A stretch of 42,127 nucleotides of DNA from an uncultured Methanobrevibacter sp. (GTDB lineage Archaea; Methanobacteriota; Methanobacteria; Methanobacteriales; Methanobacteriaceae): positions 1 to 42,127 of the forward strand of contig NZ_CAMJCX010000012.1 in the NCBI RefSeq assembly GCF_946404245.1, written 5' to 3'. This document shows positions 18,323 through 42,127 of the stretch, one piece after another. The translations under genes were made by a program, and so were the position numbers. The notes under the pieces were generated by a model. It did not search any database and was not told where the DNA came from. It saw only the letters and a list, made by a program, of their open reading frames with translations. Each line of letters opens with the position of its first letter. The first letter of the stretch is position 1.

Positions 18323-18919
18323 TTAAATCTCCAAATTAGTAAAGTTTTTCAAAATTTTTAATCCTGCCTTTCCACTTTTTTCGGGGTGAAACTGAGTGGA
18401 AAACAAATTGTTTTGTGATAGTGATGCAACCACATCTCCACCATATTCACAAACTCCTGCAACAATGCTTTCATCATCGGGAATTACATGATAAGAATGA
18501 ACGAAATAGAAAAATTCACCATCGATTCCTTCCAAAATTGGTGAATCATTAATAACTTTTAACCTGTTCCATCCCATGTGAGGTATTTTAACACCTTCCG
18601 GAAGCAATTCAACATGCCCTTTAAACAAGTCAAGTCCTTTAACACCTTTTGACTCTTCACTTGAACTCATGAGCACCTGCTGGCCAAGACAAATTCCTAA
18701 AAACGGTTTATTGTCATTGACATGCTCATTAATTACATCTTCAAACGGTTTTAGGTTTTCCATTGCGCTTCCGAACGCACCGACACCAGGCAATACCAGA
18801 TAATCACTGTCTGCAATGACCTGCTTATCATCGGTGATTTGATAATCTGCACCGATTTTTTTAAACCCATTGGAAATGCTTTTCAGATTTCCGCTTTTAT
18901 AATCAATAATTGTTATCAT
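18323..18919 (-). CDS. hisH: Imidazole glycerol phosphate synthase glutaminase subunit HisH
   Basis: HisH supplies ammonia from glutamine to HisF in histidine biosynthesis. The 198-residue class I amidotransferase has [15 protein letters not shown] at the start, [13 protein letters not shown], the nucleophile motif [27 protein letters not shown], and the His-Glu pair in [10 protein letters not shown]. The ATG at 18919 overlaps the cfbD stop by 4 bases (ATGA), and GGTGG lies upstream; a longer frame to 18931 is not needed. hisF is not adjacent. The gene sits between a coenzyme F430 gene and an AIR-synthase-like gene, an unusual place for hisH. Confidence 0.94.
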
Positions 18920-20001
18920 TCGTTTAACCACCCAATAACTGCTCTAATCATTTCACCAAAGTCTGAAAATACTATTTCATCTACTCCTAAAGTTTTTGAG
19001 TGAGCATCGAGCTCTGCAACAACATGGTCATATCCTAACTCCCTTAAAGGTTCCACCAGACGTGGACCATCTGTCACTGCAATTGACTCAGTATCAAAGT
19101 CTTCAATTGGAAACGCGTGAGGAACACCGAATACAACAATCAAGTCCAAGTCCTTATCTTTCAAGTATTCTGCAGCATTATTTCCGGTGATAGGATACTC
19201 ATCAAGACCCCCAGTGATGAAATCCGGTTCCATATCCAATTGCTCTTTAATGTTTACCGCATGCTGCCTGATTCTTGGAAGTCCAATATTTTCATCGAGA
19301 TTGGCTACAAAAATAGGCTTGTTTTCAGGATTGATTTCATTATAGTCAAAATTGACAATATCTGCAAATAAGTATGATGTTTCCTTTTTAACATTTAAAA
19401 CGAATGCCACTTTTTTATTGTCTTTTAAGGCATTTACAACAATTTTTGCAACTTTTTCCTTTGAGTCTCCGAAGTTTGGTTTGATATATTTTCCCTGTGC
19501 CATTCCACGGGTCTTTTCAACTTCGGTTGCCTTTTCCAGCATTTCAATTTGCCTGTCTGATTCTTCGCGAGGAATCACGCCGGCTTCAACTGCCGCATCC
19601 AATGCCATGATTGCCCCAACGGTATTGTCTCCTTCACCTGATCCCCCATGAGATTCGACAGGTATTACTGTGCATGGCAAATCTGCAGTTTCGATTGCAT
19701 CTTTTAAATCCTCACCAATAATCATACTTGCACAGGTCCCTGCAATTCCCATTAATTTGGGTTCAAATTCATCATAGGCTTCAATTAATGTGTCAACCAG
19801 CTTTTCACCGGCCCCCAATATAAAATCGTTTTCAGACATTCCAGTAGTTACAACACGAACTCCATCGCTTTCTAAAAGCCTTGCTGTCCTAAAACAGCAC
19901 CCTGTAGGCCCATGCATAACAATAACATCAACATTCATATCTCTTAATGTGTAAAGAGTTGCGGCAATCGGACTTGGTCTTGGATGTATAATTTTTATCA
20001 A
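18916..20001 (-). CDS. cfbD: Ni-sirohydrochlorin a,c-diamide reductive cyclase, NifD-like subunit
   Basis: CfbD, with the NifH-like CfbC, catalyses the six-electron reduction and lactam ring closure of Ni-sirohydrochlorin a,c-diamide on the way to coenzyme F430, the nickel cofactor of methyl-coenzyme M reductase. The 361-residue protein has the diagnostic [17 protein letters not shown] start and the cluster-ligand region [13 protein letters not shown] (Cys35, Cys36). A second ligand sits in [10 protein letters not shown] (Cys90), followed by [13 protein letters not shown]. This marks the organism as a methanogen or close relative. cfbC is not in the window. It is the first gene of the cfbD-hisH-AIR-synthase-like operon and diverges from the C_GCAxxG-type gene. 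Confidence 0.93.
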
Positions 20002-40022: not shown

Positions 40023-40087
40023 AATATAATTTATTAATTAATAAGTACATATTACTTTATGTATAAATGATTTAAGTTGGTGAAAAC

Positions 40088-40876
40088 ATTAGCATAATTC
40101 CAGATATAGACTTAGAAAAAACAAAAATTGACCTAGTCGAATTCATCAAATCCAAAGTTAGCGAGTCAAAAACCGATGGAATTGTTGTTGGTTTGAGTGG
40201 AGGAATCGATTCCACACTTTCAGCATATCTGGCCTGCGAAGCTTTAGGAAAAGAGAATGTATTTGGACTTGTATTGCCATCTGCTACAACACCAACCGAA
40301 GATACAGACCACGGCATTAAAATAGCTCAAAATTTAGGAATTGAATATAAAGAAATAGCTATTGACGGCATTTTAAACGAGTTTTTATCAATGACTCAAT
40401 TAGAGGAAAATGCTTTAGCTATCGGTAACCTTAAGGCTAGAATAAGAATGTCCATCATTTATTATTTTGCAAATCAGAAAAATTACCTGGTAAGTGGAAC
40501 AGGCAACAAAAGCGAAATTCTAATCGGTTATTTTACAAAACATGGAGATGGCGCATGTGATATGGAGCCTATTGGAGATTTGTACAAAGTTGAAGTTTTC
40601 AAATTAAGTGAATACCTAGGCATTTCAGAAGCAATCCTTGAAAAGCCACCTCGCGCAGGCTTGTGGAACGGTCAAACCGATGAGGATGAAATTGGAATGG
40701 GATATGATTTGCTTGATCAGATTCTTTATTTATACACAGAAAAAGATTTGAAAGACACTGAAATAGCTGAAAAGTTAAATATTTCAGTTGATGACGTTGA
40801 TATGATTATTACAAAAATTATTAGGAGCGAGCACAAAAGTAAAGTTCCTGAAAGCCCTAAAAAAACAATATTATAA
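40088..40876 (+). CDS. nadE: NH3-dependent NAD synthetase with apparent ATT start
   Basis: NadE converts deamido-NAD to NAD with ATP and ammonia. The 262-residue protein has the PP-loop [22 protein letters not shown] (about residues 34-55), the [36 protein letters not shown] signature, and [14 protein letters not shown]. In frame upstream of the PP-loop there is no ATG, GTG or TTG back to the stop TAA at 40073; the first canonical codon, TTG 40193, lies inside the PP-loop. GGTGA at 40079-40083 is followed 4 bases on by ATT 40088 and then the expected short N-terminus. An ATT start is inferred; a sequencing error at this codon is the alternative. Confidence 0.9.
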
Positions 40877-40886
40877 TGGTGATTTA

Positions 40887-42127
40887 GTGAGCGAAAATAT
40901 CGAAAAGAAATGGCAGAAAAAATGGGCAGATGCAAAGCTTTTTGAATCTAACCCAGATGAACGAGAAAAACTATTCCTTACAGTAGCATTTCCATACCCA
41001 AGTGGTGCAATGCATATCGGTCACGGACGTACTTACACCGTACCAGATGTTTATGCAAGATTTAAAAGAATGGAAGGATACAACGTATTATTCCCTATGG
41101 CATGGCACGTAACCGGTGCTCCAGTTATCGGAATTGCTGACAGGATTAAAAGAAAAGACCCTTGGACCTTAGATTTATATGAAAGAGTTCACGGCGTTCC
41201 AAAAGAAACCTTACCTCAATTGGAAGACCCTGAATTTATTGTAAAATACTTCTCAACCGAATACCACGAAGTTATGGAAGAGATGGGTTATTCAATCGAC
41301 TGGAGAAGAGAATTCAGAACTATTGATCCAACCTACAAGAAGTTCATAGAATGGCAGATTACCACATTGTATGAAAAAGGACTAGTTCAAAAAGGGGAAC
41401 ACCCTGTAAAATACTGTCCGAACTGTGACAACCCTGTAGGAGACCACGATTTGCTTGAAGGTGAAGGTGTTGGAGTCAATGAACTTACACTCTTAAAATT
41501 CAAAATTGATGATAAAGTTTTAGTAACCGCTACACTCAGACCAGAAACAATCGTTGGAGCAACCAACATCTGGTTGAACCCGGATGTGGAATATGTACTT
41601 GTTAATGCTGAAGGCGAAAACTGGGTAATTACAAAAGAAGCTCACTACAACTTATCCAATCAAATTAAGGACTTGGACATAATCGAGGAAATCAATCCTA
41701 ACGATTTGATTGGAAAAATGGCAACAAACCCATTCACCGGTGATGAATTGCCTATTTTCCCAGCAAGCTTTGTAAGTGCATCCTACGGAAGCGGAGTAGT
41801 ATTCTCAGAACCTGCTGATGCACCGGCAGACTACATTGCACTTCAAGACTTAAAAAATAACGATGAATTAATAGCTAAATACCACCTGGAAGGAATTATC
41901 GATAACGTTGAACCGATTCCAGTGTGTACCCTTAAAGGATACGGAGAAATTCCGGCTGCAGACATCATCGAAAGATTAGGAATTACAGACCAAAACGATG
42001 AAAAGTTACATGAAGCCACCAATGAACTGTACAAAGCACAGCACAGTAAAGGTAAAATCATAGACTCCATTCCAGGTTTCGGCGGAATGAAAGTTCGTTT
42101 TGCCCGTGAAGAGCTAAAAGAAAAATT
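40887..42127 (+). CDS. leuS: Leucyl-tRNA synthetase, archaeal type (3' end cut by window edge)
   Basis: LeuRS charges tRNA-Leu. The visible 413 codons hold the catalytic class I core: [45 protein letters not shown], with HIGH near residue 45. The zinc-like [13 protein letters not shown] insert and the start of the CP1 editing domain ([19 protein letters not shown], the T-rich loop) follow, in the archaeal/eukaryotic arrangement. The KMSKS region is beyond the window. GTG 40887 follows GGTGAT by 3 bases and begins [12 protein letters not shown], the family N-terminus. It lies 10 bases after nadE and is probably co-transcribed. Confidence 0.96.

Follow-up and report, generated by a model that had tools for sequence, protein, structure and literature searches.

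The gene for NH3-dependent NAD+ synthase (nadE) of an uncultured Methanobrevibacter species very likely begins on ATT, as probably do its counterparts in much of the genus, where ATT or ATC occupies the aligned position in 38 of 65 genomes. The gene lies in the 42,127-nucleotide stretch of DNA analysed here (the window). In the reading that we favour, and to which we assign a probability of about 0.85, the AUU would be recognised through the placement of a GGUGA sequence and would have been kept by selection for low or stringency-dependent output. Initiator Met-tRNA would start translation at the AUU at 40088, positioned there by a GGUGA Shine-Dalgarno (SD) sequence four bases upstream, and selection would have retained this weak codon across about 44 species. 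The likeliest benefit would be a NAD+ synthase output that is low, or that depends on how strictly the ribosome chooses its start codons. The parts of this reading differ in strength: initiation at ATT is strongly indicated by the comparisons below, a yield from AUU below that from AUG is likely, and an active regulatory role of the AUU, exerted through start-codon stringency, is possible.

That the ATT-started gene encodes an NH3-dependent NAD+ synthase is clear from NCBIfam, Pfam and solved relatives. The protein scores 325.1 bits against NF010587 (cut-off 255), 262.8 against TIGR00552 (cut-off 63.65) and 289.4 against PF02540 (cut-off 21), matches PDB 2e18 among solved structures (E = 1.6e-59), and carries both the SGGxDS P-loop and an N-terminus of family length. 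An earlier note on this DNA had proposed the ATT start on the grounds that the frame holds no canonical start codon between the upstream stop and the P-loop save one, that GGTGA stands at the spacing usual in the window, and that the N-terminus comes out at the expected length, and all three grounds proved sound. After TAA at 40073-40075 the frame reads GTT GGT GAA AAC ATT AGC ATA ATT CCA, and the sole ATG, GTG or TTG before the P-loop (40196) is the TTG at 40193, the codon adjoining SGGIDS. Eighteen window genes have, at their best canonical start, an SD match of at least five bases, and the spacing is 4 or 5 in 13 of these; from the ATT, residues 6-259 match positions 8-260 of the NF010587 model (length 267). 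The note also held that a start at TTG would truncate the protein by 35 residues and remove part of the active site; the 35 residues would indeed go, together with the strand before the loop, but the SGGIDS motif would be kept. A scan for long stretches free of canonical starts, covering 314 gene-like open reading frames (36 of them from the window and the others from 400 kb sampled from the related genome G028), placed nadE first: its gap of 39 codons from stop to first canonical codon is the longest of all, and its coding score of 16.2 is the highest among the listed frames with such a gap.

Table 1. Features around the nadE start, in window coordinates, and two further genes with proposed ATT/ATA starts, in locus coordinates.
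Feature	Position	Strand	Remark
AT-rich conserved stretch TACATA...TGTATAAATGAT, probably the promoter region	40046..40071	+	most ATT genomes
In-frame TAA upstream of nadE	40073..40075	+	frame read directly
Putative Shine-Dalgarno GGTGA, 4 bases before ATT	40079..40083	+	invariant in 38/38 ATT/ATC genomes
Predicted nadE start codon ATT	40088..40090	+	aligned codon ATT 36, ATC 2, TTG 5, ATG 22 (n=65)
nadE, NH3-dependent NAD+ synthase, 262 aa, stop included	40088..40876	+	profile matches, PDB 2e18
TTG, nadE start for an ATG/GTG/TTG-only caller, 227 aa	40193..40195	+	first canonical codon in frame
P-loop motif SGGIDS of nadE	40196..40213	+	residue 37
Presumed leuS, GTG start, GGTGAT at spacing 4	40887..42127	+	runs off window
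pheA	L115:1415-2278	-	further loci L117-L146, L193-L226
KamA-family aminomutase, radical SAM	L112:2592-3842	+	further loci L147-L167

Comparison of the aligned codon in relatives, which the earlier note had put forward as a check, bears the proposal out. All 67 Methanobrevibacter genomes were searched and 65 proved to have nadE, of which a single copy per genome entered the codon count (a second match in G086, 48% identical, was left out); the first codon is ATT in 36, ATC in 2 and otherwise one of the recognised starts, TTG in 5 and ATG in 22, and nothing else occurs in this column. Every one of the 38 ATT/ATC genomes has GGTGA at -9 to -5, a well-placed and conserved SD, and an A at -3, whereas -1, -2 and -4 vary. 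Outside the genus, 55 of 60 genomes were matched and 30 loci fetched, one of which proved to be in-genus and was dropped; 28 of the 29 loci read have an ATG placed 34-42 codons ahead of the P-loop, and in 12 of them the distance is exactly 36 codons, that of the ATT. An Rfam search gave no match near the nadE start, and the leader element was rejected as an operator of a NAD regulon, TRTATAAATGAT occurring 1-4 times per genome versus 1-6 times for a reversed control (four genomes). The gene downstream of nadE (40887..42127) we take, from its sequence, to be leuS.

In a NadE tree of the 65 proteins (quick method, midpoint root), all ATT, ATC and TTG genes plus a single ATG gene (that of G007) fall into one group of 44 with an SH-aLRT of 96, and the four states of the start codon require 5 changes. 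ATG was probably replaced by the ATT start a single time, after which the ATT was retained; with one origin, the 38 species do not count as 38 independent events. Within the 38 ATT/ATC genes the start codon needs 2 changes, while 16 near-invariant isoleucine codons need 1 to 16, four of them at most 3. Isoleucine codons 4, 125, 126 and 243 vary about as little as codon 1, so that constancy of the third base is by itself weak support; the low change count would thus back selection on the codon itself only mildly.

Behind nadE in the same scan, ranks two and three were taken by pheA and a KamA-family gene, both in G028, and both look like real genes that start on ATT or ATA. The former encodes prephenate dehydratase, with position 4 of model NF008865 falling on the fourth codon from its ATA, and in the 64 genomes read (of 66) the aligned codon is ATT in 37 and ATA in 12, or 49 altogether. 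Of the remaining 15, six have ATT and six ATG one codon upstream (G008, one of the six with ATT, has a nearby in-frame ATG too), two carry ATG at the aligned position itself, and in G019 an ATG stands two codons further downstream. That species differ in having ATG or ATT at a single site is the behaviour expected of a start codon, and the 6 changes of this codon match the count for the least variable of 15 isoleucine columns. Counter-evidence comes from 18 of the 49 ATT/ATA genes, in which a canonical codon stands upstream in the same frame, frequently as the GTG inside GGTGAT. The KamA-family gene (best model TIGR04368, at a score below its cut-off) is present in 20 of 148 genomes of the order, all in this genus. 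Its start is ATA in 21 of the 21 genomes carrying the gene, 13 of which lack an in-frame canonical codon upstream, and this codon shows 0 changes versus 1 to 7 for 23 isoleucine columns.

Such starts do not appear to extend to the gene complement at large. Most genes scanned have ordinary starts, and a comparison of G028 with G009 outside the pheA-nadE region flagged 15 of 135 orthologous genes without yielding a convincing non-canonical start; one flagged gene, G028_394, has an ordinary ATG further upstream. Since none of these 135 pairs was convincing, non-canonical starts appear to be rare and gene-specific, with no general loosening of start choice. In the pheA-nadE region itself 13 of 112 pairs were flagged, a scan that yields no rate because the region was picked for its two known cases. 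Many of the flags in both regions, among the matches listed, were discarded on reading by eye because they reflected only an ATG shortly after a conserved 5' UTR.

Could the odd codon belong to a damaged or misread gene, or could translation start elsewhere? The window genome is fragmented and 87% complete, which leaves room for a sequencing or assembly error or a gene broken in this strain. The frame has no internal stops, however, and ATT is present in 35 other genomes, among them the single-contig, 2.27 Mb G028 and independent assemblies from three projects (L031-L033); being shared by independent genomes, the ATT is not an error or a strain mutation, and what chance such an explanation retains is negligible. 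A short NadE started at TTG 40193 has in its favour that this is the first canonical codon in frame and that the shortened protein still reaches 294.7 bits on NF010587, above the cut-off. We nevertheless regard it as highly improbable: no SD was found for that TTG, the residues ahead of it show conservation and line up with those of relatives that start on ATG, and a canonical codon occurs at its column, the commonest such column across codons 2 to 60, in only 14 of the 38 ATT/ATC genomes. Ten of the 38 have no canonical codon at all from the upstream stop to codon 45. Initiation upstream, either at an in-frame ATG near -21/-24 or at the out-of-frame GTG of GGTGA followed by a frameshift, draws on the seven of 38 genomes with an in-frame ATG, GTG or TTG before the ATT (for example, ATG at -21 in G009, G071, G079 and G086). 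Against it, the other 31 are free of canonical codons from the upstream stop to the ATT, the distance from ATG to GGTGA varies so that the frame differs between species, no conserved slippery site was seen, and the four bases before the ATT vary except for the one A. Such an origin is very unlikely for the set as a whole, although canonical codons upstream in 7 of 38 and between the ATT and the P-loop in 12 of 38 make another nadE start conceivable in some species.

A different objection accepts initiation at ATT and denies that it matters, the codon being a neutral or slightly harmful relic, free of regulation and made tolerable by a good SD. Other genes of the genus also use ATT or ATA starts, so its ribosomes may just tolerate them, and some species have swapped the nadE codon for ATC, TTG or ATG. 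Yet ATG lies a single base change from ATT and is found in only 1 of the 44 members of the group, a rarity that would lend selection stronger support than the change counts do, and the kamA start has stayed unchanged in 21 genomes. We rate a relic as unlikely, though with a sizeable minority chance. The retention of ATT in most relatives, together with at least two further genes that behave alike, suggests that the weak start is deliberate rather than an error, in keeping with selection for a low or stringency-dependent output.

Conserved AUU or AUA starts are known from a handful of bacterial genes, in which they limit or regulate output. The gene for initiation factor IF3, infC, is reported to start with ATT, ATC or AUA in several bacteria; like nadE it has a weak, AUU-type start recognised through the SD, but it is autoregulated by IF3, whereas nadE encodes a metabolic enzyme in an archaeon (PMC5472188, PMC13009471). 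In Staphylococcus, reporters of cvfC1 (AUU) and ccpN (AUA) are described as giving about 10% of the AUG level in poor medium; these genes share with nadE a conserved AUU/AUA start outside infC and a conserved SD, strong in cvfC1 and ccpN, but they are bacterial, have extended SDs and were demonstrated by Ribo-Ret and reporters, while the SD match of nadE is the five bases GGTGA (PMC13009471). These staphylococcal starts, which depend on their strong SDs, are the precedent for the likely lower yield of nadE. The Streptomyces gene sigR, with a reported GTC start in 32 of 34 cases and GTT in 2, likewise retains a non-canonical start genus-wide, one that limits sigR output, although its codon differs, its product is regulatory and its start is experimentally proven (PMC5472188). 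Judged by its sequence features, the nadE ATT is the same kind of site as those of bacterial infC, sigR and cvfC1/ccpN, here in an archaeon. The open-licence literature, searched by title or abstract, yielded no AUU or AUA start in Methanobrevibacter and one inferred archaeal precedent for an ATT start, in an Asgard tubulin. That gene, AtubA, had been missed by annotation and resembles nadE in that an archaeal ATT start was inferred from sequence and ribosome-binding-site spacing; it is a single gene assigned by alignment, fold and that spacing, as against 38 of 65 species and several genes here (PMC13394414).

The case has practical as well as mechanistic bearings. NAD is an essential cofactor, and in these methane-producing archaea of the gut its making is served by a nadE that appears to have an odd start. 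Automated annotation of many gut methanogen genomes would truncate NadE, PheA and the aminomutase or put them in the wrong place, since a caller confined to ATG, GTG and TTG is often left without a correct start. To our knowledge archaea have no bacterial IF3. Start-codon fidelity in archaea is credited to aIF1, which is reported to favour discrimination against non-canonical starts (PMC6237735), and a clade-wide archaeal case would offer a natural system for testing start-codon stringency under this factor. An aIF1-type gene (TIGR01158) was detected in 40 of the 67 genomes, including the ATT species G028 and G036, and with the gene present in ATT species, loss of the initiation factor was rejected as the cause of the ATT start. 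The search gave no TIGR01158 match in 27 of the 67, among them 8 of the 37 high-quality genomes; assembly gaps are a likely reason for these absences. It is tempting to speculate, although we consider it doubtful, that nadE, pheA, the KamA-family aminomutase and perhaps some adhesin-like surface proteins make up a start-codon-stringency regulon built on AUU/AUA starts, probably governed by aIF1 or initiator supply and acting on whole pathways.

Several other genes have unusual sequence around their starts. Large adhesin-like genes with signal-peptide-like N-termini, observed in the pheA-nadE region of G028, G009, G071 and G079 (loci L115 and L168-L192), begin GAGGTG(G/T)AATTATTAA(A/G) with no ATG, GTG or TTG near the SD; GAGGTGGAATTATTAAA and similar starts without ATG were seen there as well. 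A gene at 18916-20001 of the window (minus strand), presumably cfbD-like to judge by its N-terminus, was matched in 66 of the 67 genomes. Among the 30 loci read, the codon before HPRPSP is ATA in 27 and ATG in 3, and all 27 ATA loci have a GTG or TTG four codons upstream, the intervening bases being invariant. Finally, in G028 the gene at 2067153-2068547 (locus L168), which we take from its sequence to be gatB-like, reads GGAGGAATTATTATTAGTGATGATGTCGATATGATG, with an SD better placed for an ATT than for the ATG that follows 20-odd bases later.
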